From: Amorphoplanes friuliensis DSM 7358 | GTDB taxonomy: Bacteria > Actinomycetota > Actinomycetes > Mycobacteriales > Micromonosporaceae | Length of the DNA: 64,000 nucleotides | NCBI RefSeq assembly: GCF_000494755.1 | Contig: NC_022657.1 | Span: 4,750,001 to 4,814,000, forward strand | Reading direction: 5' to 3' | Part shown: positions 4,790 to 37,720 of the stretch, piece by piece | How positions within the stretch are numbered: position 1 is the stretch's first letter | Layout: each line of letters starts with the position of its first letter | Made by a program: the position numbers and the translations under genes | Notes under the pieces: model-generated | The model's input: only the letters and a program-made list of their open reading frames with translations | Told to the model about the DNA's origin: nothing | Database searches by the model: none

Positions 4790-6490
4790 TCAGCGCAGCT
4801 TGACGTCGAAGATCTTGTCAGCGGCGAGGGTCTTGAACGCGGCCAGGGCCGTCTTCGTCGAGTCGATGCTGATGTCGCGGTCGCCCTGGTCGTCACGCTT
4901 GGTGTCGAAGTAGACGATCGCCTTGATGCCCGGGCGCTTCTTCAGCTCCGGCAGCACGCTCCTGAACCCGGCGGACTTGTCGGCGACCTTGCCGACGCGG
5001 TGGTAGACGCCCCACTCGGCAACCATGATCGGCTTGCTGGCGTGCTTGGTGGTGGCCCAGTCGTACCAGCCGAGGCCGCCGCCGGTCGGCTGACGGTCGA
5101 GCAGGTCGCCGAACAGACCGAAGTGGTAGTAGCCCTTCTCGGCGCTCACGTACGAGTCGAGACCCATCCAGTCGACGACGTCGTCACCCGGGTAGAGGTC
5201 CTTCCACCAGGACTGCGCCATCCACTTCTCGTTGCCCATGTAGGCCATGACGTTGATCGCGTTGCTGACACCCTTGGCGCGCAGGCGCAGGATCGTGTGG
5301 CGGTACATCGCGGCGAAGTCCTTCGCCTCCCAGCCGGAGCCGGACTTGGCGACGACGTCGTTCTCGGGCTCGTGGTTGAGGACGAGGTAGAACTTCTCCG
5401 GGAAGGTGCTCTTGATGCGGGCGGCGAACTTGTCGATGCGGGCGTCCTGCTCACCCTTGGCAACCTTGGCCCAGGTCGAACCGTACGCGATCTTCCAGTT
5501 GAGCAGGAGCACACGCGGCTTGGCGGCGTCGCGGGCCATCGCCATCTCGGACTTGGTCGGGAACGGCTCGTCACCCTTGTGGTACGCGTGGAAGATGCTC
5601 GCCGTACGCCCGCTGAGCTTCTCGAAGTCCTTCAGCGCCTGGTCACGCGGGGCGTCGGTGAAACCGCCGGCGGCGGCACCCCAGAGCACGCCGCAGGACG
5701 GCACGAGCAGCTTGTCGGTCACGCAGTCGCCGCCGGAAGGCGCCGGGGTCGTGGGCGCGGGCGTCGTGGGAACCGGGGTCGTCGTCGCGGGCGGCGGCAT
5801 GTCCTCGTCCTCGATCGGGGTCGCCGACGGCGGCACGACCTCGTCCGGCACGTAGTCGGTCGGGGGCTCGACCGGCACGGACGGCTGGGCCGGGGCGGTC
5901 TCGGCCGGAGCCGGCGTGGTCGCGGTGGTGGACACGAGCAGCGCGGGGGCGCCGCTCCTGCCCTCGGCGGACCGGATGCGGGTGACGGCGTTCGCGGCCG
6001 AGGACTGCAGGGCGAAGGAGTAGGCGCCCGGGCCGGTGACGACCGAGGCGAGGTCGAAGGTCAGCTCACCGGCGTCGGCCTTCGGGCTCACCGAGGCGAC
6101 GTCCGCACCCAGCGCCGGAGCGGTGGCGGCGGTGACGGTCTTCTCCGACCAGCTGCTGTCCGCGACCCGGCTCAGCGTGATCCGGCCCGCGATGTCGCCG
6201 ACGGTGACCAGCTTCAGCTTGGCGCCCGTGACCTTGACACCGGCCGGGACCAGGAACTTCAGGAAGCCGATCTTGGTGTCGCCGTCCATGCGGCCGATGG
6301 CCAGCTTGTCCTCGCCGCCGAAGCCGGCGTTCTTGCGGCCGCTCGAGACGTAGGTGTCGTCACCGGCAGCCAGCTTGAGCTCGGGGCCGGCCACGGCCGA
6401 CGCGGGCGCCGAGGCGACCAGCGCGGTCCCGGCACCGGCCACCAGAGCGGCCAGGGCGGTCACGGACTTCTGCAGCTTCTTGCGACGCAA
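4790..6490 (-). CDS. Secreted GH26-like glycoside hydrolase with N-terminal DNRLRE-type domain
   Basis: About 566 residues. The N-terminus is a Sec signal (RRKKLQKS, hydrophobic stretch, ASAPASAVA). It is followed by a beta-sandwich DNRLRE-like domain ([25 protein letters not shown], about residues 35-190), a Pro/Thr/Glu-rich linker and a C-terminal catalytic domain. The catalytic part has VLNHEPEND, placing a candidate acid/base Glu, and KPIMVAEWG, placing a candidate nucleophile Glu, as in GH26 beta-mannanases and related enzymes. It probably acts on plant or microbial polysaccharide outside the cell. A TTG start at 6490 is chosen because GGGGGAG lies eight bases before it; an in-frame ATG at 6520 lacks a good ribosome binding site. 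Family assignment is by motif only. Confidence 0.82.
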
Positions 6491-6730
6491 TGTCTTTCTC
6501 CCCCGCGTTGTCCGGCGCATGTCGGCCGGGCATGGAGAGAAGATTCCGGGGTCCCCGGTGCGCGGACCGTGCCCGAACAGGTGCCGCCCGGTTGCGAACG
6601 ACACGAACGGCGGGACTTGAGGATTCCTGGGCTCGTCCCGGCGCGCGAATCGCCCGCCGCCGGTCATATGCTGCGGCAGGAGATCATCAACCGTTCGGAG
6701 TGCCTGGCCCGTGACCTTCGAGGAGCAGCA

Positions 6731-7960
6731 GTGACCGTGGAACCCGCCCTGCGTGCCATGCCGGTGATCGACGGGCACAACGACCTGCCGATGGCACTGC
6801 GGGCCCGGGCCGGGTACAGGGTGACCGGGCTCGCCGCGGACCGGCCCGAGTTCCACACGGACATCGCACGGCTGCGTGCGGGCGGGGTCGGCGGGCAGTT
6901 CTGGTCCGTCTACGTGCCGTCGGACCTCAGCGAGCCCGAGGCCGTCGTGGCGACGATGGAGCAGATCGACGCCGTCTACCGGCTCGTGGCCGAGTACCCG
7001 GACGACCTGGCCGTCGCGTACTCCGCGGACGACGTCGAGGCGGCGATCGCCGGTGGCCGGATCGGGTCGCTGATCGGCATCGAGGGCGGGCACAGCCTGG
7101 CGACCTCGCTCGGGGTGCTGCGCGCGTTCGCCCGGCTCGGCGTGCGGTACGTGACGCTGACGCACAACCACAACACGTCGTGGGCGGACTCGGCTGCGGA
7201 CGTACCGGGAGTGGGTGGCCTCGACGACGAGGGCCGGGCGATCGTCGCGGAGATGCAGCGCATCGGGGTGCTCGTGGATCTGTCGCACGTGGCCGCGACG
7301 ACCATGCACGCGGCGCTGGACGTGGCGACCGCCCCGGTGATCTTCAGCCATTCGTCGGCGCGTGCGGTCGCGGACCACCGGCGCAACGCCGCCGACGACG
7401 TCCTGATCCGGCTCCGTGACAACGGTGGCGTCTGCATGGCGACGTTCGTGCCGCTCTTCGTCTCGGCCGAGGTCGCGGCCTGGGCCGAGGCCGCCGACGC
7501 GGAGTGGGCCCGGCTGGGCCTGCCCCCGGCGCCGGACTCCTGGCCGGCCGCACCCCGGCCGGGTCGCGAAGGCGTGACCGGGCCGGCGCCCGCCGGGGGC
7601 TCGTTCCTGTCGGGGCTGCCCGGGACCGAGGTGGCGCCGCCGGAACCGTTCAAGCCCTGGCTGGCCGCGAACCCGCGGCCCGAGGCGACGATCTCCCAGG
7701 TCGCCGATCACGTCGACCACCTCCGCGAGGTCGCCGGCCCCGACCACGTCGGGCTCGGCGGGGACTACGACGGCTGCGACCGGCTGCCCCGCGGGCTCGA
7801 GGACGTGTCCGGATATCCGCGGCTGCTGGAGGAGCTCGCCGGCCGCGGCTGGAGTCAGGACGACCTGGAGAAGCTCACCGGGCGCAACATCCTGCGGGTG
7901 CTGCGCGCGGCCGAGGAGGCCGCGGAGGAACCGCTCTGGCCGATGTCACCGGCGCGCTGA
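6731..7960 (+). CDS. Membrane dipeptidase (peptidase M19, renal dipeptidase family)
   Basis: A 409-residue zinc dipeptidase. The binuclear metal ligands are all visible and spaced as in mammalian membrane dipeptidase: His16 and Asp18 (DGHND), bridging Glu118 (GIEGGHS), His186 (DLSHVA) and His207 (FSHSSAR). A late LGGDYDG segment completes the barrel. The enzyme hydrolyses dipeptides, including D-amino-acid-containing ones. No signal peptide, so probably cytoplasmic. GTG start with GAGGAG six bases upstream. It is divergent from the GH26-like gene across a 240-base gap with no obvious shared operator. Confidence 0.93.
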
Positions 7961-24613: not shown

Positions 24614-25531
24614 TCAGTCGAGGGCACCCTTGATCTTGTTGACCACGTTCGCCACGCCCTGGGCGTGGGCGCCGGCGCCGGTGCCCGGCTTGCCCTTGCC
24701 CATGTCGCCGGCGTACGTGACGTACAGCTTGGGGTCCGGGGCGGGTCCGAGCGGCTTGTCGTCGGTGAGCGGCACGGCGTCCGGGACGTACTCGATCTCT
24801 TCCTTGCCGATCAGGGCCGGGCCCCGCGCCCAGCGGCCCTCACCGGCCTTGCTCTCCGGGTCGAAGCTGTAGAACGTGTGGTTGGCGAAGTCCTTCTCGT
24901 CCTCGCCGTTGGAGTTCTCGATGCCGTGCTCGACGAACCCGTCCTCGATGAGCTGCTCGATGCCCAGCAGCCACTGCTGCTGGTGGTAGGTGTCGCGGGC
25001 CAGGTTGAACTGCAGCATGTCCTTGACACCACGGTCGTCGGTCATGTTGTAGACCCGGCTTGTCATCAGCCGGCTCTGCGCCTCGGCCGCCACGTTGGAG
25101 CGGAAGTCGGTCAGCAGGTTGCCGCTGGCGGCGATGTAGCCGGTGTTCCACGGCGTGCCCTCCGAGTCACGGGGCAGGGCGCTGCCGCCGCTGACGATGG
25201 CGTGCTGCGGGCTCATGCCGCCGAGGACGGCCGCGAGCAATGGGTTGGCGGCCGCGGCCTTCTCGGTCGCCTCGCCGGGGGCACCTTCGAGGAGGCGGGC
25301 GAGCATCGTGGTGAGCATCTCGACGTGACCGATCTCCTCGGTCGCGATGTCCATGATCATGTCCTTGTACTTGCCGGGCACACGGCACGACCAGCCCTGC
25401 CACAGGTACTGCATCATCACGGTCATCTCACCGAACTGGCCACCCACGAGTTCCTGCATCTTGCGGGCCAGCAGGGCGTCCGGCTTCTCCGGCTTCGCCT
25501 GGAACTGCAGGTAATCGACGTGCTTGAACAT
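24614..25531 (-). CDS. Manganese (non-haem) catalase
   Basis: A 305-residue dimanganese catalase, converting hydrogen peroxide to water and oxygen. The ferritin-like core shows the ligand pattern in ELVGGQFGEMTVMMQYLWQG, then EEIGHVEM (Glu and His ligands) and EAQSRLMTSRVY...RDTYHQQQWL. The C-terminal tail (KGKPGTGAGAHAQGV) is the Gly-rich extension of the family. Start at 25531: GGAGG lies five bases upstream, and the family start MFKHVDYLQF follows. No signal peptide; cytoplasmic. The NRAMP transporter 1.7 kb away could supply manganese. Confidence 0.95.
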   Translation of the reverse strand: MFKHVDYLQFQAKPEKPDALLARKMQELVGGQFGEMTVMMQYLWQGWSCRVPGKYKDMIMDIATEEIGHVEMLTTMLARLLEGAPGEATEKAAAANPLLAAVLGGMSPQHAIVSGGSALPRDSEGTPWNTGYIAASGNLLTDFRSNVAAEAQSRLMTSRVYNMTDDRGVKDMLQFNLARDTYHQQQWLLGIEQLIEDGFVEHGIENSNGEDEKDFANHTFYSFDPESKAGEGRWARGPALIGKEEIEYVPDAVPLTDDKPLGPAPDPKLYVTYAGDMGKGKPGTGAGAHAQGVANVVNKIKGALD

Positions 25532-25659
25532 CAGAACCTCCATCGGGGCGGAACGGGCACGCCGATGCACTACCCGTGCCCCTGGCCCGGCCGGGCCTGC
25601 GTCCGGCCCCGCAGGGCCGCGGCGAACATGAAACGGCCCGGTGCGGGTACGCGCCGGCC

Positions 25660-26918: not shown

Positions 26919-27173
26919 TCGACCACCGCCGGGGTGTAGCGCTCGCCGGGCAGGATCGCCGGCACGCCGGGCGGGTACGGGCTGATCATCTCGGCCGAGA
27001 TCCGCCCGTCCGGATCCGCGACCTGCTCGGTCCGCGCGAAGAAGGCATCACGCGGGCTCATCGCCTGCTCGAGGTTGAGCTCCTCCAGCCGCGGGACCCG
27101 CGGAGCCGGATGATCGGGCCGCGGCGGCGAGGCGGCCAGCGCCGACAGGCCGGTGAAGGTCCGGTTGAATCGT
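26828..27173 (-). pseudogene. Orn/Lys/Arg decarboxylase, C-terminal fragment only
   Basis: About 115 codons encode the C-terminal domain of PLP-dependent ornithine/lysine/arginine decarboxylases (COG1982): SPRDAFFARTEQV, GRISAEMISPYPPGVPAILPGE and a closing KLETFRVVARD. The catalytic PLP domain (normally about 350 residues upstream) is absent; the reading frame upstream is antisense to the NRAMP gene and does not resemble it. There is no credible start codon with a ribosome binding site. This is a remnant, probably left by a deletion or by the insertion that brought the NRAMP gene. Confidence 0.8.
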
Positions 27174-27232
27174 GTCCCGCCGGGGCCAGCCGCTGGCCCG
27201 CGGGTGACGCTTGCGGGGGAACTGCGCGAGCC

Positions 27233-28489
27233 ATGGTCGTCCTCGATTCCGCAGCTCAGCTGATGCTCCCGCTGCGCCGCCGCGTGGCGCGCGTGGCGCC
27301 GTGGTTCGGCCCGGCGTTCGTCGCCGCCATCGCCTACGCGGATCCGGGGAACTTCGCCACCAACTTCACCGGCGGCGCGACCTTCGGCTATCAGCTCGTC
27401 TGGGTGATCGTCGCGGCGAACCTCATGGCGATGCTCATCCAGTCGCTGTCGGCCAAGCTCGGGCTCGTGACCGGGCGCGACCTGGCCGAGCTGTGCCGCG
27501 AGCACCTGCCGCGGCCGGTCTCGCGGGGACTCTGGGTGCAGGCCGAGCTCGTCGCGATGGCGACCGACCTCGCGGAGATCATCGGTGGGGCGCTCGCCCT
27601 GTACCTGCTCTTCGGCGTACCGCTGCCGGTCGGCGGGCTGATCACCTGCGTCGTGGCGTTCGCGCTGCTGGGGCTGCAGCAGCGGGGCGTGCGGCGGTTC
27701 GAGACCGTGATCGCCGGTCTGCTCGGTGTCATCCTGCTCGGCTTCCTCTACACCGCATGGCGCTCGGGCGCGGACGCGGCCGGGGTGGCGGCCGGCATGG
27801 TGCCGTCGTTCGCCGGGGTGGACAGCTTGCTGCTGGCCACCGGCATCCTGGGTGCGACGGTCATGCCGCACGTCATCTACCTGCACTCGGCGCTGACCAA
27901 GACGCGGTCCGCGGCGACCGCGGATCCGGCGGAGCGGCGGCTGGCCCTGCGCTGCCAGCGGATCGACACCCTGGTCGCGCTCGGTGTGGCGGGCCTGGTC
28001 AACCTGGCCATGCTGCTGATCGCCGCCCGGCTGTTCTTCGGCTCCGGCATCCCTGGCACCGACACCCTCGAGGGCATCCACGCGGGCCTGGGTGTCAGCC
28101 TCGACCGGTACGCGGCGCTGGCCTTCGCGGTTGCGTTGCTCGCCTCGGGTTTTGCCTCCTCCAGCGTCGGCACGTACGCCGGGCAGGTCGTGATGCAGGG
28201 CTTCATCGGGCGCAGCATCCCGCTCACCCTCCGGCGTCTGCTGACCATGGCCCCGGCGATGCTGATCCTCCTGATCGGCGTGGACCCGACGGCGGCTCTG
28301 GTCTGGTCGCAGGTGGTGCTCTCGTTCGGCGTTCCCTTCGCCCTGATCCCGCTCGTGTGGCTCACCCGCCGCCGCGACATCCTCGGCGACCAGGTCAACC
28401 GGCGCTCGACCACCGTGGTCGCCTCCGTGGTCGCGGCGCTGATCGTGGCGCTGAACGTCTTCCTGATCGTCAGGACTTTCGCCGTTTGA
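27233..28489 (+). CDS. NRAMP-family divalent metal transporter (MntH-like)
   Basis: A 418-residue proton-coupled Mn2+/Fe2+ importer with about 11 helices. Metal-site motifs are present: DPGN in helix 1 (Asp37-Asn40) and MPH in helix 6 (Met211-His213). The rest follows the family (LSAKLGLVTGRDLAELC, YAGQVVMQGFI). ATG 27233 is chosen as the first Met before the conserved core. A GGGGGA lies 12 bases upstream, a little far, so another start is possible. Proximity to manganese catalase suggests manganese uptake under peroxide stress; no Fur/MntR box was recognised. Confidence 0.92.
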   Translation: MVVLDSAAQLMLPLRRRVARVAPWFGPAFVAAIAYADPGNFATNFTGGATFGYQLVWVIVAANLMAMLIQSLSAKLGLVTGRDLAELCREHLPRPVSRGLWVQAELVAMATDLAEIIGGALALYLLFGVPLPVGGLITCVVAFALLGLQQRGVRRFETVIAGLLGVILLGFLYTAWRSGADAAGVAAGMVPSFAGVDSLLLATGILGATVMPHVIYLHSALTKTRSAATADPAERRLALRCQRIDTLVALGVAGLVNLAMLLIAARLFFGSGIPGTDTLEGIHAGLGVSLDRYAALAFAVALLASGFASSSVGTYAGQVVMQGFIGRSIPLTLRRLLTMAPAMLILLIGVDPTAALVWSQVVLSFGVPFALIPLVWLTRRRDILGDQVNRRSTTVVASVVAALIVALNVFLIVRTFAV

Positions 28490-29935: not shown

Positions 29936-30118
29936 ATGCGCACGGCACCGGTCATCCGCAGCCTTCTCGCCACCACCTACCTGCTGGCGCTCGTCCTGCA
30001 CGGCCGGTGGAACAGCCTCAGTGCTGTCCTCGCCGCATCGGTGGTCGCGGTGTGGGCGTTCCCGCTGATCCGCGATGCCCGTCTGCGCCGCGGCACGGAA
30101 CCGCTGTCACCGCAGTGA
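29936..30118 (+). CDS. Small single- or two-helix membrane protein
   Basis: A 60-residue hypothetical protein with two adjacent hydrophobic stretches (SLLATTYLLALVLHG and LSAVLAASVVAVWAF) and a basic tail (RDARLRRGTE). A clear GGAGGG lies seven bases before the ATG, which makes it a credible gene despite its size. Its last 12 bases overlap the convergent glycosyltransferase gene. Not recognised; it follows the compact kinase gene by 87 bases and may be co-transcribed. Confidence 0.65.
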   Translation: MRTAPVIRSLLATTYLLALVLHGRWNSLSAVLAASVVAVWAFPLIRDARLRRGTEPLSPQ

Positions 30119-30781
30119 CACTTCGTCGGCCAGGTCCGCGAGGTGGGCGGCAAATCCGGAGGGGGCCCGCGCATGCCGCCGGGAGCTGGTGATCACCGGG
30201 CTGCCGGCGTCGTAGCGCACACGAAGCTTGCCGGCGACGGCCCGCCTGACGAAGTCGACGTCCTCGTCGTGGGGCACCGCCGCGAACCCGCCCAGCCGGA
30301 GGTACGCCCGGGCATCACACCCGAGGTTCGCCCCGTGCACGTGCCTCAGCGCGGCCCGGTAGTGCCGTTCGTAGGCGTCCCGGACCGTCACCGGCCAGGG
30401 GGTCCAGTCGTCGACCCCGACCGTGCCGACGAGGACCTCCGTGCCCCGGGCAGCGTGCCCGGCGTGCCACAGCAACCAGTCCGGCGCCACGAGGCTGTCC
30501 GCGTCGGTGGTCGCCAGCCACAGCCCGTCGGTGCCGTGCCGGAGCGCATGAGCGAACCCGGCCGCCCGGGCGGCGCCGACACGACGCGCCGCCAGCCTGA
30601 CGACCTCGGCACCGGCGGCTTCCGCGACGGTCGCCGTGCCGTCGTCGCAGTCGTCGGCGGCGACGACCACCTCGGTCCGGCCCTCGAAGCGGCCCGCGGC
30701 GGCCTCGATCGCCTCGAGACAGTCCGGCAGCAGACCTTCCTCGTTGTGCGCGGGTACGACGACGGCCAGACGTTTCAGCAC
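30107..30781 (-). CDS. Family 2 glycosyltransferase
   Basis: A 224-residue GT-A-fold glycosyltransferase. It opens VVVPAHNEEGLLPDCL, has the nucleotide-binding VVVAADDCDDGT, the DxD motif in ATTDADSLV, and an acceptor/base region VPHDEDVDFVRRA. It lacks membrane helices, so transfer occurs in the cytoplasm. GTG start overlapping the stop of the methyltransferase gene by seven bases. It is the last gene of a four-gene overlapping operon with deacetylase, methyltransferase and acyl-CoA-dehydrogenase-like genes, suggesting synthesis of a small N-modified glycoside or glycolipid. Donor sugar unknown. Confidence 0.9.
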   Translation of the reverse strand: MLKRLAVVVPAHNEEGLLPDCLEAIEAAAGRFEGRTEVVVAADDCDDGTATVAEAAGAEVVRLAARRVGAARAAGFAHALRHGTDGLWLATTDADSLVAPDWLLWHAGHAARGTEVLVGTVGVDDWTPWPVTVRDAYERHYRAALRHVHGANLGCDARAYLRLGGFAAVPHDEDVDFVRRAVAGKLRVRYDAGSPVITSSRRHARAPSGFAAHLADLADEVSLR

Positions 30782-31383
30782 AGGCCCTCGCGTTGAGCCA
30801 CGGAGAGCGCACCCGGCGGAGTCCGGGAGAAGACCTCGAGCCGGAAGTCGTCCTCGACGTGCCGGACGGTCCGGGTCAGACCGGTGATCCCGGCCAGCAG
30901 CGCGTGCACCTCGTCACCCGGGCGGGCGTGCTCCGCGACGGGCCGCCGCCAGTGGACCGCGACCAGGTCGCCGCCCGGCTCCAGCGAGGCCGTGGCCCGC
31001 TCGAGCAGCCGGTCGAGGTCGGCATCGTCGAAGTAGTAACCGAGCTCGGAGAGGACGATCAGGTCGAAGGTGCCGTCCGGCCAGCCCTCGGGCAGCTGCG
31101 CCTCGGCCACCATGACATGCGGCTGGTCCTTCAGGCGGTCCGCCGTCGTCGCTACCGCGGAGGGCACCGCATCGACGGCCAGCAGGGCGTCGCACCGCGC
31201 GGCGAGACGGTGGGTGAGCCGGCCCGTCGAGCAGCCCGGCTCGAACGCCGACCGGTACCGGCGGCGGGGCAGCGCGGCGACGGTCAGGTCGTGTTTCCGG
31301 GTGTCGTACCAGCGGGTCTCGAAGCTCCACGGGTCCGGGTTGTCCGCGTACATCTGCTCGAAGTAGCTGACCGGCGTGCTCAT
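30775..31383 (-). CDS. SAM-dependent methyltransferase (NodS-like)
   Basis: A 202-residue class I methyltransferase. SAM motif I is FEPGCSTGRLTHRLA, motif II LLAVDAVPSAV, and the catalytic-face strand is FDLIVLSELGYYFDD. Size, the opening YFEQMYADNPDPWSFETRWYD and the LSELGYY motif fit the NodS-like group, whose founding member N-methylates a deacetylated glucosamine of Nod factors. The ATG overlaps the PIG-L stop (ATGA). With a deacetylase encoded directly upstream, N-methylation of a freed amino group is the natural inference. The true substrate is unknown. Confidence 0.88.
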   Translation of the reverse strand: MSTPVSYFEQMYADNPDPWSFETRWYDTRKHDLTVAALPRRRYRSAFEPGCSTGRLTHRLAARCDALLAVDAVPSAVATTADRLKDQPHVMVAEAQLPEGWPDGTFDLIVLSELGYYFDDADLDRLLERATASLEPGGDLVAVHWRRPVAEHARPGDEVHALLAGITGLTRTVRHVEDDFRLEVFSRTPPGALSVAQREGLC

Positions 31384-32102
31384 GCGAACACCACCTCGAA
31401 CGGGCGGCGGAACCGGGCCAGCACGTGTGGCGGAAGGATCGCGGCGTCGGCCGGATCCGGGCCCAGGTCCCAGATCTGGCTCGGAAAGGCCAGGATCGCC
31501 TCCTGCTTCGCCTCCAGGACATCCGGCGGCAGGTCGACGCGCCGGGCCCGGTTCCACGGGACTCGCTCGTCGTCCGGCTCCGCCCAGTGCCAGGTCCAGA
31601 TCGGATACTCGATGAGGCGCGCGCCGGTCGCCGCGCAGGCGGCCGCGGCAGCCCGGCCGACGGCCTCGTGATCGGGATGTCCGTCGCCGCGCCACGTCGC
31701 CAGGCACCACCGGTCCGGCGTCAGCAGCTCGCTCAGGATCGCGGTGAGGGCCTGCTCGTCGATGCCGCCGTCGGGCTGGCCGAGGTGCCGGACAGCCGTG
31801 CGGGGCAGCCCCAGCCGGTGCAGCGCCTCGGCGGTCTCCGCCCGCCGCAGCGCGGCCAGCTCCGCTTGCGTGTGGACCGTGGAGCCCGGGTGCGAAGCCT
31901 CCCCGTCGGTCACGGCCACCACCTCGGCGCCGGGCAGCAGCGCCAGCAGGCCGCCCACACCGAGGACCTCGTCGTCCGGGTGCGGGGCCACCACCAGCGG
32001 CGGGGACGGTGGGTCGAGGGTCAGCGCCGGCCAGCCGGTCACCGCCGGCCAGGTACGCCAGCGGGTGTCGTCGGTTCCGGTGCCTTCGATCGCGGTCACC
32101 AT
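31380..32102 (-). CDS. PIG-L family N-deacetylase
   Basis: A 240-residue zinc deacetylase of the PIG-L/MshB/LmbE family. Metal and catalytic motifs are present: APHPDDEVLGVGGLL near residue 40, and GDGHPDHEAVGRA in the middle. Members remove acetyl groups from GlcNAc-type residues in GPI, mycothiol and antibiotic precursors. The C-terminal stretch is short for MshB, so this is probably not the mycothiol enzyme. Overlaps on both sides place it second in the four-gene operon, acting just before the NodS-like methyltransferase. Confidence 0.9.
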   Translation of the reverse strand: MVTAIEGTGTDDTRWRTWPAVTGWPALTLDPPSPPLVVAPHPDDEVLGVGGLLALLPGAEVVAVTDGEASHPGSTVHTQAELAALRRAETAEALHRLGLPRTAVRHLGQPDGGIDEQALTAILSELLTPDRWCLATWRGDGHPDHEAVGRAAAAACAATGARLIEYPIWTWHWAEPDDERVPWNRARRVDLPPDVLEAKQEAILAFPSQIWDLGPDPADAAILPPHVLARFRRPFEVVFA

Positions 32103-33022
32103 GCGGGCGGGTTCTCCTTCAGCAACGTGCCGAGCTGGGCCAGGTCGGCCTCGGCGTGACTTTGGCGCAGATAGACGGTGAGGTCCGCGACCCGGCGCGC
32201 GTGGGCGGCGTCCTGGCAGAGCGGGCCGGCGCCGAGCGCACGGCCGACGTGGTCGAGGACCTGCGTCGCAACGCTGTCGACGACGGTCCGGACCCGGACG
32301 GCCAGCTGCTGGGCGTCGGCAGACGGTTCGGCGTCGATGCGCTCGGCGGCGTCACGCAGCGCCAGCCTGGCCGTGTGCAGCAGCCCGTCGACCGCGCCCA
32401 GGTGAGCGAGAGCATGCGGGTTCAGGTCACGCGTGCGGGCCGCCGCCAGCAGGGTGTCCGCGACCCCGGTCGCGCCGCCGTACCAGCAGGCCGCGACACC
32501 GACGCCGCCGTGCCAGAAGCCGGGTCGCCCCACGTAGTCGCCGGGACCACCGACGGGGCGGGCGGGGCAGTCGGCGAAGCGGACGGTGCGGCTGTCGCTG
32601 CCGGCCATCCCGACCGCGGGCCAGGTGTCGTCCAGCGGTGTCGCCGCCGGTTCGCGGACCTCGACGGCGAAGAGGCGTACGCCGTCCTCGGCGACCGCGG
32701 TGACCAGCGCGTGGGTGCACGAGCCGGCGCCTGAGCACCATGGGCGGTCGCCGCTCACCGACCAGGCACCATCCTCGGTCCGCCGGGCCTCGAGCGACGA
32801 GGGAACCGCCGCCCAGACTCCCCAGCGTTCGCTGTCGGGGTCGGCGGACGGCTCGTCCTTCAGCTCGGCGCGGATGGCGGTGGCGTCGGCGTGGCCTTCG
32901 GCCAGCCGCGCCAGGACCAGGTCGTCACGTCCGAGCGACGCCAGGCGCCACCAGCGTTCAGCTGTCTGTCCCGAGCCGGGTAACGGCAGGCCGGCCACCT
33001 GCTTCGAGAAGTCGTCTTGCAC
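32096..33022 (-). CDS. Acyl-CoA dehydrogenase-like flavoprotein
   Basis: A 308-residue protein, shorter than the usual about 380 residues of acyl-CoA dehydrogenases. The middle shows the beta-domain pattern (WSVSGDRPWCSGAGSCTHALVTA), and the C-terminal half is helical (LAHLGAVDGLLHTARLALRDA, VLDHVGRALGAGPLC). The N-terminal substrate-binding helices are abbreviated, and a catalytic Glu cannot be placed with confidence. It heads the operon; its stop overlaps the PIG-L start by seven bases. It could oxidise an acyl or aminoacyl intermediate. GTG start; a leader is barely present. Confidence 0.78.
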   Translation of the reverse strand: MQDDFSKQVAGLPLPGSGQTAERWWRLASLGRDDLVLARLAEGHADATAIRAELKDEPSADPDSERWGVWAAVPSSLEARRTEDGAWSVSGDRPWCSGAGSCTHALVTAVAEDGVRLFAVEVREPAATPLDDTWPAVGMAGSDSRTVRFADCPARPVGGPGDYVGRPGFWHGGVGVAACWYGGATGVADTLLAAARTRDLNPHALAHLGAVDGLLHTARLALRDAAERIDAEPSADAQQLAVRVRTVVDSVATQVLDHVGRALGAGPLCQDAAHARRVADLTVYLRQSHAEADLAQLGTLLKENPPAW

Positions 33023-33610: not shown

Positions 33611-33647
33611 CCACCCCTCTTCCGTGCACCCCCGAAAGGACAAGACC

Positions 33648-34514
33648 GTGCCTACTTTTGAGACTCCCCGCCCGATCGAAGCGACCCTCGAGCTGGTTGT
33701 CGGTGACGCCCGGGTGACCGCCGGCGACCAGGCTCGGACCGTCGTCGAGGTCCGCCCGAGCAACCCCGGCACCGAGGCGGACGTCCGGACCGCCGAGCAG
33801 ACCCGAGTCGAGTTCAGCGACGGCCGGCTCCTGGTCAAGACCCCCAAGACGCTGCGTGGCGGGATCGGGCTGTTCGGCAAGACCGGCTCGGTCGACGTCG
33901 AGGTCTCGCTGCCCACCGGCTCCACGCTGCGCGGTGACGCCGCGGTCGCCGCCTTCCACTGCACCGGGACGCTGGGCGACACCCGGATCAAGACCGCTAC
34001 GGGCGACGTCCGCCTCGACCGTACGGGTGCGCTGGCCGTGACGACGTCAGGTGGTGCCATTGTGGCGTCATCCGTGGACGGGACCGCCGACCTGAAGACG
34101 GCCACGGGCCTGATCAGTGTCGGCGACATCACCGGCGGCGCCGTGGTCAAGAACTCCAACGGCGAGACCCGCCTCGGCGCGGTCGGTGGCGACCTGCGCG
34201 CCAAGAACTCCAACGGCGACATCGTCGTCGGTCAGGCGCGCGCCGGTGTCGACGCCGCGACGGCCAACGGCAGCGTCCGGATCGGCGCCGTGCACCGCGG
34301 CGCGGTCAGCCTGCGGACGGCCGCCGGGAGTCTCGAGGTCGGCATCGCCGTGGGCACGTCCGCCTACCTCGACCTGCACACGCAGTTCGGCAAGGTGCTC
34401 AACGAGCTCGAGTCGACGGGTGCGCCCGAGGCCGGCGCCCCGAGTGTCGAGATCAACGCCCGCACCTCGTTCGGCAACATCGTCGTGCACCGCGCACCCG
34501 CCGGGGAGAACTGA
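33648..34514 (+). CDS. DUF4097 beta-repeat protein
   Basis: A 288-residue protein built of short beta repeats, with recurring patterns such as IKTATGDVRLD, LKTATGLISVGD, VKNSNGETRLG and AKNSNGDIVVG, the parallel beta-solenoid signature of DUF4097 (putative adhesin). No signal peptide is visible, so it is cytoplasmic or exported by another route. GTG start with GAAAGGA eight bases upstream. Its stop TGA overlaps the ABC ATPase ATG. Function unknown; linkage with DrrAB-like transporters suggests a role in sensing or coupling. Confidence 0.88.
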   Translation: MPTFETPRPIEATLELVVGDARVTAGDQARTVVEVRPSNPGTEADVRTAEQTRVEFSDGRLLVKTPKTLRGGIGLFGKTGSVDVEVSLPTGSTLRGDAAVAAFHCTGTLGDTRIKTATGDVRLDRTGALAVTTSGGAIVASSVDGTADLKTATGLISVGDITGGAVVKNSNGETRLGAVGGDLRAKNSNGDIVVGQARAGVDAATANGSVRIGAVHRGAVSLRTAAGSLEVGIAVGTSAYLDLHTQFGKVLNELESTGAPEAGAPSVEINARTSFGNIVVHRAPAGEN

Positions 34515-35434
34515 TGATCACCGCGACCGGCCTGCGCAAGGCGTACGGCGACCACACCGTTCTCGACGGCATCGACCTCGACGTCCCGGCCGGCTCGGTC
34601 TTCGCCCTGCTGGGGCCGAACGGCGCCGGCAAGACCACCGCCGTACAGATCCTGACCACGCTGAAGAGCGCCGACGCGGGTGAGATCCGCGTCGGCGGGC
34701 ACGACCCGGCGACCGAGCCGGACGCGGTCCGGGCGGCGATCGGGGTCACCGGTCAGTTCTCCGCCGTCGACGCCCTGCTGACCGGGCGCGAGAACCTCCT
34801 GCTCATGGCCGACCTGCACCACCTGGGCCGGCGGGCCGGACGGCGTCGCGCGGACGAGCTGCTGGTGCAGTTCGACCTGGTCGACGCCGCGGGCAAGCAG
34901 GTGGCGGCCTACTCGGGCGGCATGAAGCGGCGCCTCGACATCGCCATGGGTTTGGTCGGTGACCCGCGGATCGTCTTCCTGGACGAGCCGACCACCGGTC
35001 TCGACCCGCGCAGCCGGCAGGCCATGTGGCAGACGGTCCGCAGTCTGGTCGCGGGCGGCGTCACGATCTTCCTCACCACGCAGTACCTGGAGGAGGCCGA
35101 CCAGCTGGCCGACAAGATCGCGGTGCTCGACGGCGGCCGGATCGTCGCCGAGGGCACCGCCGAGCAGCTCAAGCAGCTGGTCCCCGGCGGTCACGTCACG
35201 CTCCGGTTCGCCGAGGTGCAGGCGCTGCGGCTCGCCGCCACCGCCCTGGACGTCACCGAGGTCGACGCCGACCAGCTGACCCTGGACGTCCCCGGTGACG
35301 GCAGCGTGCGGTCCCTGCGGGCGCTGTTCGCCACCCTGGACGACGCGCGGGTCGAGGTCGACTCGCTGACAGTGCACACCCCGGACCTCGACGACGTCTT
35401 CCTGGCCCTCACCGAGAAGGAGCCCGCGTCATGA
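34514..35434 (+). CDS. Daunorubicin-resistance-type ABC transporter ATP-binding protein (DrrA-like)
   Basis: A 306-residue ATPase. Walker A is GPNGAGKTT (from about residue 34), signature YSGGMKRRLD, Walker B IVFLDEPTTGLDPRSR and switch His replaced by Gln in TTQYLEEAD, which is normal for the DrrA group. The C-terminal domain (SLTVHTPDLDDVFLALT) is the DrrA-type tail. It powers drug or lipid export with the permease encoded next (ATGA overlap). Placement after RHH and DUF4097 genes makes a four-gene operon. Confidence 0.95.
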   Translation: MITATGLRKAYGDHTVLDGIDLDVPAGSVFALLGPNGAGKTTAVQILTTLKSADAGEIRVGGHDPATEPDAVRAAIGVTGQFSAVDALLTGRENLLLMADLHHLGRRAGRRRADELLVQFDLVDAAGKQVAAYSGGMKRRLDIAMGLVGDPRIVFLDEPTTGLDPRSRQAMWQTVRSLVAGGVTIFLTTQYLEEADQLADKIAVLDGGRIVAEGTAEQLKQLVPGGHVTLRFAEVQALRLAATALDVTEVDADQLTLDVPGDGSVRSLRALFATLDDARVEVDSLTVHTPDLDDVFLALTEKEPAS

Positions 35435-36207
35435 CCACGCTCGCCCTGACCGTCCGCGACTCGAACACGATGCTGCGCCGCAACCTGCGCCACATGCTCC
35501 GATATCCGGCCCTGACCGTGATGCTCGCCGGCATGCCGGTGATCTTCCTGTTGCTCTTCGTCTACGTCTTCGGCGGCACGCTCGGCGCCGGCCTGGGCGG
35601 CGGCCGCAGCGAGTACCTCGCCTACGTCGTACCCGGCGTCCTGATGATGACCGTCGGCGGCGCGGCCACCGGCACCGCGATTTCGGTGGCGATGGACATG
35701 ACCGAGGGCATCGTGGCCCGCTTCCGCACGATGGCCATCGCCCGCGCCTCGGTGCTGACCGGGCACGTCCTCGGCTCGCTGATCCAGACCTTCATCAGCC
35801 TGCTCATCGTGCTCGGAGTCGCCCTCGCCGTCGGCTTCCGCCCGTCAGCGGGCCCGCTCGCCTGGCTCGGCATCGCCGGGGTGCTCGCCATGGCCACCTT
35901 CGCCCTGACCTGGCTGGCCACCGCGCTCGGCCTGGTCGCCAAGACGGTCGAGGAGGCCAGCAACACCCCCCTCCCCCTGACCCTGCTCCCGTTCCTCGGC
36001 AGCGGTTTTGTCCCCACCGATTCCATGGCGCCGGGCCTGCGGCAGTTCGCCGAATACCAGCCCTTCACCCCGATCATGGAGACGATCCGAGCCCTCCTGA
36101 CCGGTACGCCCGTCGGCGGCAACCTCTGGGCCTCGATCGCCTGGTGCGCGGCCATCGCCCTCGGCGGCTACCTGTGGGCCCGCCGCCGCTACAACGCCAA
36201 GGCCTGA
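35431..36207 (+). CDS. ABC-2 type transporter permease (DrrB-like)
   Basis: A 258-residue membrane protein with six helices: the first after LRRNLRHMLRYPALTVMLAGMPVIFLLLFVYVFGG, later LAWLGIAGVLAMATFALTWLATALGL. The ABC-2 signature around FLGSGFVPTDSMAPGLRQFAEYQPFTP is typical of DrrB-like drug exporters. It pairs with the ATPase upstream and ends the operon at a hairpin terminator. Substrate unknown. Confidence 0.94.
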   Translation: MTTLALTVRDSNTMLRRNLRHMLRYPALTVMLAGMPVIFLLLFVYVFGGTLGAGLGGGRSEYLAYVVPGVLMMTVGGAATGTAISVAMDMTEGIVARFRTMAIARASVLTGHVLGSLIQTFISLLIVLGVALAVGFRPSAGPLAWLGIAGVLAMATFALTWLATALGLVAKTVEEASNTPLPLTLLPFLGSGFVPTDSMAPGLRQFAEYQPFTPIMETIRALLTGTPVGGNLWASIAWCAAIALGGYLWARRRYNAKA

Positions 36208-36258: not shown

Positions 36259-37497
36259 TCAGAAGCTGACTGTGTTGTCGCGCGTTGCGGCCGGGCTGGA
36301 CAGAACCACGTCAAAAGCTCGGCTCAGATCGGTGTCCATCACGGCGCTCTGTGAGCGGACATGGCTGAACGGTGACGTGGAGACGTGGAGGTCGGTCAGG
36401 GTGATCGATGTGCCGAGGCCCGCGTTCACCAGAGCCTTCTCGATGCTCCCGTCCGGGGGCGTGGGCAGGCCGACGTCTTCCAGGGTGAAACCCACCGGTG
36501 ACTTCTCGGCGGGGAAGGCCATCTCCGGCACGTGCCTTCCCGTATGGGTCAGAGCGATGCTGCGGTATCCCTTACCCAGGTTGCGGGCGAGGTAGTAGCC
36601 CATGGGCAGGGCTGTGAGTTCGCCGTCGAAGACCACGGTGGTCTTCTGAATGTGATTGTTGTGCGCTATGACGATGATGCGGGCGTCCACGGTCGTAGCG
36701 ACGAGGTCCTCCACGGATGCCGCCATGTAGTGCTCACGGAGCGACGGGTCGCAAGGAGCGCCGCCACCCGCAAAGAGGGCGTTCATGGCGCGCAGTTGGT
36801 AATCGGTGTGAACAGCTGCGCTGAGATGCCGGCGTGCGGTTGTGTAGGCGTCGATGCCTGATTGTTCGATGTAGAGCGGTCCCATGGCTTGCAGCCGTAG
36901 GAACAACCGGGCGAGGCCGGCGGTGAGGGCGTCCTGTTCAGCGGTGCCGAGGGCGCCCCACTGGGGTGCGGATATGACGGCTGAGCTGCCGGTGATGTGT
37001 CCGGCCGAGGGCAAGATGTCCTTCAGCACGGCGGCGGCTGACGGATCGACGCCGGCCAAGTAGGCATCGACCCGCGCGAGATCCGAGTTCAAGGTCAGCG
37101 TGTTGGGCAGGTCTACACCGTTGACCTGGAGTGGCTTCGGACGGCTCCGGTTGTAGTCGCGGAGCCAGCGCAGCAGCTGCCCGAACACGCCTACGGTCAG
37201 AGGCCCGACAAGCTGCGGCAGGCCGTCGTCGTCACCTTCTCCCGCCAGCCACGGATTGATGGCGGCGGCTTCGGCGTGGCCGCATTCGAGCGCCAGGGTG
37301 GTGAAGCCGCACTCTTCCACGAGGTATCGCACCAGGCGGGCGCGGGCGAGAGTGAACTCCTCGACGAAGTGAGCACCCTCGCCGACCCCGACGACATGGG
37401 CGCCGGCCAGCGCTTCTCGGAGCGGTTCAAGATCGGAAAGCTGTGGATCGGACGGATCCAAGGTGTTCAAGGTGACGGTGCCGATGAGCGAAGACAT
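36259..37497 (-). CDS. Erythromycin esterase family protein
   Basis: A 412-residue protein of the Ere/EreA-like family. Family blocks include VVGVGEGAHFVEEF near residue 40 (active-site Glu/His region), TTLALECGHAEAAAINPWL, a mid ARIIVIAHNNHIQKT and late PMGYYLARNLGKGYRSIAL. Proven members open macrolide lactone rings; many others have unknown substrates. The gene is visibly AT-richer than its neighbours and has poor ribosome-binding signals, suggesting recent transfer. It is adjacent to a block bounded by direct repeats, but lies outside it. Whether it gives macrolide resistance cannot be told from sequence. Confidence 0.85.
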   Translation of the reverse strand: MSSLIGTVTLNTLDPSDPQLSDLEPLREALAGAHVVGVGEGAHFVEEFTLARARLVRYLVEECGFTTLALECGHAEAAAINPWLAGEGDDDGLPQLVGPLTVGVFGQLLRWLRDYNRSRPKPLQVNGVDLPNTLTLNSDLARVDAYLAGVDPSAAAVLKDILPSAGHITGSSAVISAPQWGALGTAEQDALTAGLARLFLRLQAMGPLYIEQSGIDAYTTARRHLSAAVHTDYQLRAMNALFAGGGAPCDPSLREHYMAASVEDLVATTVDARIIVIAHNNHIQKTTVVFDGELTALPMGYYLARNLGKGYRSIALTHTGRHVPEMAFPAEKSPVGFTLEDVGLPTPPDGSIEKALVNAGLGTSITLTDLHVSTSPFSHVRSQSAVMDTDLSRAFDVVLSSPAATRDNTVSF

Positions 37498-37626
37498 GAC
37501 TGGAGCACTCGACTCTCTGTTCGAAGGGCATGGCAGCTGGACGCGCGGCGTGAGCCGCTGCGTCAGATGAGGACCGCTTCGCTCAGAGGTAGAGGATGCC
37601 AGGAAACACGTTCCGATCTTCCCGAA

Positions 37627-37642
37627 CCGGCTCAGTTCAGTC
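37627..37642 (+). repeat. 16-bp direct repeat, left copy
   Basis: CCGGCTCAGTTCAGTC, identical to 42400-42415 and embedded in a longer similar context (CTTCC-GA-CCGGCTCAG...). The two copies enclose the XRE-to-MFS block. Confidence 0.6.
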
Positions 37643-37720
37643 AACGGGTCTTTACCGAGCTGCGCGAGCCCTCAGCGTGCCGTGTCGATGTCCGCCGTGG
37701 GGTGACCTGGTAGTCGATCT

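Follow-up and report, generated by a model that had tools for sequence, protein, structure and literature searches.

A widespread four-gene cassette of Amorphoplanes friuliensis and other bacteria with a possible role in tailoring an amino-sugar glycoside

A four-gene operon in Amorphoplanes friuliensis

We analysed a 64,000-nucleotide stretch of Amorphoplanes friuliensis DSM 7358 (the window), which covers positions 4,750,001-4,814,000 of a 9.38-Mb genome assembled as one contig; positions without further mark are those of the window. On its minus strand, running from 33022 to 30107, lies an operon of four genes that code for a flavoprotein of the acyl-CoA dehydrogenase (ACAD) fold, a PIG-L/LmbE-family de-N-acetylase, a NodS-like methyltransferase and a GT2 glycosyltransferase (Table 1). 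As an original prediction made from the bare sequence had it, the four genes overlap on one strand, successively by 7, 4 and 7 bases, and from these overlaps they probably form one translational unit. A consensus-based scan for sigma-70 promoters and terminators found neither at the operon.

The PIG-L protein scores 77.4 bits against a Pfam cut-off of 28.2 and has a complete HPDDE / HPDH metal motif, and the glycosyltransferase, apparently a soluble enzyme, matches Glycos_transf_2 (2.3e-16). The flavoprotein matches the Pfam domain Acyl-CoA_dh_M (3e-7) with 30.9 bits, just below the gathering cut-off of 33.3 bits, while members of its family elsewhere pass the cut-offs of other ACAD domains. 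The closest named matches of the methyltransferase come from Amorphoplanes, Actinoplanes and Paractinoplanes.

Table 1. The operon and its Mn-catalase and Nramp neighbours in the window
Feature	Positions	Strand	Remarks
ACAD-fold flavoprotein, first gene	32096..33022	-	GTG start at 33022; 308 amino acids; annotated elsewhere as acyl-CoA dehydrogenase
PIG-L/LmbE-family de-N-acetylase	31380..32102	-	240 amino acids; 7-base overlap with the ACAD-like gene; PF02585, 1.8e-21
NodS-like SAM-dependent methyltransferase	30775..31383	-	202 amino acids; 4-base overlap with PIG-L; PF05401, 9.2e-13
Small GT2 (GT-A fold) glycosyltransferase, last gene	30107..30781	-	GTG start at 30781; 224 amino acids; 7-base overlap with the methyltransferase
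Mn-catalase	24614-25570	-	PF05067, 1.1e-88; 4.5 kb from the operon
Nramp metal transporter	27110-28489	+	PF01566, 3.3e-117; between Mn-catalase and operon

Conservation and phyletic spread of the cassette

Using the methyltransferase alone as the bait, we retrieved 46 actinobacterial loci and matched the other three proteins to them by tblastn (E <= 1e-5). All four genes were recovered in 40 of these loci, so the arrangement goes far beyond chance. Most of the gene pairs measured in these loci are separated by gaps of -7 or -4 bases. Some of the loci with the handles L002-L012 duplicate genomes of L016-L061, and only the latter are counted here. One locus (L052) has only the methyltransferase of the four genes. 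More widely, the methyltransferase (E <= 1e-15) was found in 49 of 396 sampled Actinomycetota genomes, at 51 places. Forty of these places, from 39 genomes and in several cases ending at a contig end, make up our wider Actinomycetota set; the remaining 11 comprise that of the window and ten more, including the four weakest. In this set the ACAD-like protein is present at 38 places, a deacetylase at 39 (17 of the PIG-L and 22 of the CE4 family) and the glycosyltransferase at 37. Within the genus, a PIG-L match with E < 1e-100 was seen in 12 of 24 genomes, the window's own included.

Beyond Actinomycetota, related sets are carried on plasmids of Pseudomonadota, Deinococcota and one cyanobacterium. 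Our plasmid set of 23 loci, from Actinomycetota as well as other phyla, was hand-picked from match lists, one or two per genus, and is thus non-random. It omits a second Acinetobacter copy (L070), and L093 and L065 are one and the same plasmid (100% identical and of equal length). The flavoprotein, deacetylase and methyltransferase occur together in 19 of the 23 loci, with representatives from Acinetobacter, Comamonas, Pandoraea, Legionella, Bradyrhizobium, Sulfitobacter, Sphingomonas, Novosphingobium, Paracoccus, Roseivivax, Roseomonas, Jiella, Methylobacterium, Deinococcus, Nostoc, Rubrobacter and Kitasatospora. L074 and L125 give no match to the cassette methyltransferase, L063 gives none to PIG-L, and L069 none to PIG-L or the ACAD-like protein. 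Across these loci the gene order is permuted and the glycosyltransferase is the most variable member. A crude and noisy clustering of open reading frames from 86 actinobacterial loci, many of them in wrong frames, yielded no fifth widely common gene such as a polymerase or flippase. The set is therefore a real and widespread cassette: a failure of the four families to co-occur elsewhere, which had been named as the finding that would speak against the original prediction, is the opposite of what these neighbourhoods hold.

The same four kinds of genes have been recorded in Acinetobacter baumannii, where glycosyltransferase, methyltransferase, LmbE-like and acyl-CoA dehydrogenase/oxidase genes flank blsA in one strain; the passage in question describes them as flanking genes only, with no assigned function (PMC6240043).

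In a tree of the methyltransferase (36 rows with distant outgroups, 15 of its 33 inner branches being open), the window protein clusters with relatives from Amorphoplanes and Micromonospora. Five beta- and gammaproteobacterial versions form one group (98/94) within the actinobacterial part, with the Legionella protein outside that group. This placement, together with plasmid carriage, tentatively suggests that the cassette has spread horizontally. The idea that NodS branched off from the cassette methyltransferases found no support in this tree, which has NodS on a long branch at an unresolved fork.

A possible coupling of deacetylase and N-methyltransferase as in Nod-factor tailoring

The original prediction had seen in the order of the activities a likeness to the tailoring of rhizobial Nod factors, and three observations back this logic. 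In 11 of the 46 loci (from Microbacterium, Curtobacterium, Amycolatopsis, Actinosynnema and a Microbacteriaceae isolate) PIG-L and the methyltransferase are a single open reading frame, with both domains confirmed by Pfam in the two that were scanned; L050 also appears fused, and as its methyltransferase frame was not picked it stands outside the 11. In 22 of the 40 loci of the wider set a CE4 polysaccharide deacetylase occupies the place of PIG-L, for which the examined stretch then gives no match. Twenty-one of these belong to one family, including that of a Rubrobacter indicoceani plasmid, and one to another; all 22 have the TFDDG and HCxxH metal motifs. The Rubrobacter indicoceani version, the one CE4 protein scanned, matches PF01522 (3.6e-26) and has NodB as its best NCBIfam match, at 113 bits against a cut-off of 240. 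Finally, a plasmid of Sulfitobacter indolifex codes for one protein of 1026 amino acids that joins GT2, NodS-like methyltransferase and CE4 domains (L127:4393-7473, plus strand). Given that two unrelated deacetylases fill the same slot, the feature common to the loci is probably de-N-acetylation, and both the fusions and the displacement by CE4 support the proposal that deacetylase and N-methyltransferase act on the same sugar.

The motifs of the deacetylase and the glycosyltransferase are intact. H41, D43, D44, H142, D144 and H145 of PIG-L are identical in all 59 aligned members, a completeness shared with the PIG-L/LmbE deacetylases BshB, MshB and diacetylchitobiose deacetylase, from which the window protein differs in its operon partners and in falling under the equivalog cut-offs of its NCBIfam matches. 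(Conservation counts for PIG-L and for the flavoprotein leave aside L016 and L059.) The DxD and ED motifs of the glycosyltransferase are invariant across 48 aligned members. Among structures in the PDB, PIG-L matches TT1542 (1uan, 3.7e-9) and PH0499 (3we7, 1.1e-6), and the methyltransferase matches 4isc (1.9e-47) and NodS (3ofj, 2.5e-14).

Like the NodC-NodB-NodS system of rhizobia, the cassette brings together a GT2-superfamily enzyme, a de-N-acetylase and a NodS-like methyltransferase in one unit, with a NodB-like CE4 protein in place of PIG-L in the Rubrobacter-type operons, and its methyltransferase has W19, E48, C51, G54, E113, Y116 and Y117 in common with two NodS proteins. It differs in that the window's deacetylase is a PIG-L protein, the glycosyltransferase has 224 residues, NodC, NodA and NodU are absent from the four-gene unit, and the H144-W145 pair conserved in the cassette enzymes is missing from the two NodS. 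The noted absence of a chitin synthase holds for the window glycosyltransferase, which has no NodC-type chitooligosaccharide synthase among its 11 NCBIfam matches, the rest of the genome not having been searched for NodC. A Nod-factor system proper was rejected on this ground and on the score of the methyltransferase against the NodS equivalog, 67.3 bits against a cut-off of 300.

The ACAD-fold flavoprotein

The first protein of the operon had been called acyl-CoA-dehydrogenase-like and short. Short it is, though not a fragment: the AlphaFold model (pLDDT 92.2, pTM 0.91) has a nearly full ACAD fold, residue 1 of which aligns with about residue 36-48 of many of the chains listed by VIA-align. 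With the predicted fold both confident and nearly complete, a truncated dehydrogenase was rejected. Of the name itself, the fold stands and the dehydrogenase is doubtful. A wide family profile built from 25 diverse members ranks the monooxygenases MsuC (1.2e-21) and DszC (4.9e-21) first, followed by KijD3 (8.6e-15), DnmZ (8.5e-13) and the nitrososynthase 3mxl (9.9e-12). All four NCBIfam matches of the window protein, weak as they are, are to monooxygenase or sulfur-oxidoreductase models, and a Foldseek search with the model places DszC on top (3.3e-12) and DnmZ at 4.9e-11, with dehydrogenases close behind. KijD3 and DnmZ are absent from the 50 matches listed by VIA-align, which excludes nothing.

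In ACAD enzymes the catalytic Glu lies in the C-terminal YEGT motif. At the aligned position, 288, the family has S, D, H, P, A, C, Q, N or G, and Glu in none of 61 members, in a register set by hand and with the alternative Glu position of the isovaleryl and long-chain enzymes judged by eye only. Ser97 of the CSGA motif, common to DszC and MsuC, is present in 59 of the 61. The oxygenase His (DszC His391) has no counterpart, the aligned residue being Gln287 in all 61 by a register taken by eye from the MsuC alignment only.

The ACAD fold is also that of the group D oxygenases, to which KijD3 and DnmZ belong (PMC5481743). The cassette flavoprotein resembles the flavin monooxygenases (DszC, MsuC) and sugar N-oxygenases (KijD3, DnmZ) of this group in its fold, its CSGA-type motif and the best matches of its wide profile; it differs in its shorter N-terminus, in the Gln at the aligned oxygenase His and in the lack of a flavin reductase gene in the window unit. 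A ferredoxin-reductase-type NAD(P)H reductase gene of the oxygenase kind occurs in 20 of the 22 CE4 operons, and none in the window unit. On balance, the comparisons not being unanimous, the residues and profiles make a flavin-dependent, group D oxygenase-like enzyme more likely than a dehydrogenase.

Two variants of this part of the cassette were also seen. The Rubrobacter-type operons have a rubredoxin/putidaredoxin-reductase-like gene between methyltransferase and glycosyltransferase (L065:7567-8769), a candidate electron donor. The ACAD-like protein of two Deinococcus species has about 400 extra N-terminal residues that match nothing in Pfam at the applied cut-offs (L064:3899-6247, L124:6597-8846).

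Genomic neighbourhoods

A KatE-like catalase is encoded in five of the 23 plasmid loci (L068, L076, L077, L120 and L121), with a weak 27% match in L066; the queries were taken from two of the same loci. By the density of the collection (589 catalase places in 7.3 Gb) 0.03 would be expected, and about 1.6 if each plasmid had one, randomly placed. Catalases of other types were also seen: a catalase-family protein in L069 and L074, and a Mn-catalase in L122. In the window the operon has a Mn-catalase and an Nramp gene near it (Table 1). Of its two nearest relatives, L016 keeps both genes, and in L017 a Mn-catalase match begins right behind the glycosyltransferase. In Legionella, too, an Nramp gene comes after the cassette.

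Trehalose-metabolism genes are a further recurrent neighbour. On a Comamonas endophytica plasmid, otsA, the flavoprotein, PIG-L, methyltransferase and glycosyltransferase genes and otsB follow one another on a single strand, overlapping or spaced by a few bases (L072:6535-11503). Legionella lytica has the order otsB, GH65, PIG-L, methyltransferase, glycosyltransferase, flavoprotein; otsAB lie near the Acinetobacter cassette; and in one actinobacterium a GT20 gene (8.2e-80) stands at least 0.6 kb upstream of PIG-L, methyltransferase, glycosyltransferase and flavoprotein genes on the same strand. These catalase and trehalose neighbours, chiefly on plasmids, hint at stress survival, and the plasmid neighbourhoods point to it over signalling.

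Elsewhere in the window, near the operon, lies an erythromycin-esterase-family gene (36259-37644, minus strand; PF05139, 4e-41). Opposite to the operon, on the plus strand (33624-36207), are genes for a 296-residue protein with no Pfam match and an ABC transporter ATPase, and an open reading frame overlapping the end of the latter by 4 bases. The second half of a long plus-strand frame at 5000-7960 is a membrane dipeptidase (Peptidase_M19, 2.4e-108).

A model for the pathway and its alternatives

We propose, tentatively and with a probability of about 0.45, that the operon acts as a mobile cassette for the tailoring of an amino-sugar glycoside, which is deacetylated, N-methylated and oxidised by the flavoprotein to give a probably stress-protective product. 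The GT2 enzyme would join an N-acetylated, GlcNAc-like amino sugar to an acceptor; PIG-L would take the acetyl group off the joined sugar; the NodS-like enzyme would N-methylate the amine thus freed; and the flavoprotein, as a flavin-dependent oxygenase, would oxidise what results, most likely on or adjacent to the methylated nitrogen. The outcome would probably be a glycoconjugate or solute that is made under stress and is protective. For the acceptor, one candidate is trehalose or a sugar derived from it, because trehalose-metabolism genes share the operon or sit just upstream in three lineages. In its fullest version the proposal describes a pathway that is new and has spread horizontally, whose product, an amino-sugar glycoside both N-methylated and N-oxidised and possibly built on trehalose, protects against stress; we regard this as unlikely in all its parts together.

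Several results weigh against the proposal. A profile of actinobacterial members only ranks 5gj7 and a Thermus ACAD first. Among the 40 Actinomycetota loci a KatE-like catalase lies near only two and a Mn-catalase near none, and three of the 46 actinobacterial loci have either type nearby. Promoters of the general stress factor EcfG near the alphaproteobacterial cassettes were considered and rejected: a scan of ten loci with a consensus found 4 sites where 4.4 were expected, one of them about 60 bases before the Roseomonas flavoprotein gene but on the opposite strand. Because catalase is rare near the Actinomycetota cassettes and EcfG promoters are not enriched, the stress role is suggestive only. 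For Curtobacterium, a desiccation study names drying-induced glycosyltransferases and an acyl-CoA dehydrogenase, which could not be tied to the cassette (PMC12029717).

It is possible, if rather doubtful, that what the cassette makes is not a small solute but a portion of a polysaccharide or oligosaccharide of the envelope, the stress genes being mere fellow travellers on plasmids. Three further glycosyltransferases upstream of the flavoprotein gene in the Novosphingobium and Paracoccus loci would fit this, as would glf near the cassette of Deinococcus gobiensis and the position of the Sulfitobacter indolifex trifunctional protein next to an ABC transporter, a sulfotransferase and a polysaccharide-biosynthesis gene; yet the window glycosyltransferase is small and alone, and the rough survey of the 86 loci brought up no widely common gene of polymerase or flippase type. 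Should the flavoprotein be a true acyl-CoA or acyl-carrier dehydrogenase, the operon could make a glycolipid with a desaturated acyl chain whose sugar head the other enzymes modify. This is unlikely in view of the missing Glu and the monooxygenases that head the wide profile, and the four-gene unit has no acyltransferase or acyl-CoA ligase.

A pathway to a low-molecular-weight thiol or an aminoglycoside-type product would pair a glycosyltransferase with PIG-L as in mycothiol and bacillithiol synthesis, and deacetylases of the BshB/MshB type do act on GlcNAc glycosides. The window PIG-L has weak matches to BshB1 (36.3 bits) and BshB2 (34.8 bits), which are far under the respective cut-offs of 182.5 and 195.25 bits; the glycosyltransferase belongs to GT2, whereas MshA and BshA are GT4 enzymes; and the four-gene unit has no cysteine ligase or other thiol gene, so that we consider such a pathway highly improbable. 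Membership in mycothiol or bacillithiol synthesis itself was rejected on the equivalog scores, and MshB is not among the three NCBIfam matches listed for PIG-L.

Novelty and implications

Nod factors already offer an example of the logic that unites glycosylation, de-N-acetylation and N-methylation, and public annotation names parts of the set, including the trifunctional GT2-NodS-CE4 protein. What appears new is its combination with PIG-L and an ACAD-fold flavoprotein, as well as the setting. The portion of the open literature that our search reached names no product or function for the set, a weak negative as the term 'PIG-L' may not match the index, and a search by Acinetobacter baumannii locus tags gave no result.

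One small cassette thus spans Actinomycetota, Pseudomonadota, Deinococcota and a cyanobacterium, and plasmids that carry it come from environmental as well as clinical bacteria. With a NodB-like enzyme in the place of PIG-L, a vague annotation becomes a reaction that can be tested, and what is labelled an 'acyl-CoA dehydrogenase' may be a new oxygenase that modifies sugars. If the proposed pathway is true, rhizobial Nod-factor tailoring would be the same pairing of deacetylase and N-methyltransferase in another setting; and if its product is a stress protectant, it would represent a new class among bacterial protective metabolites.

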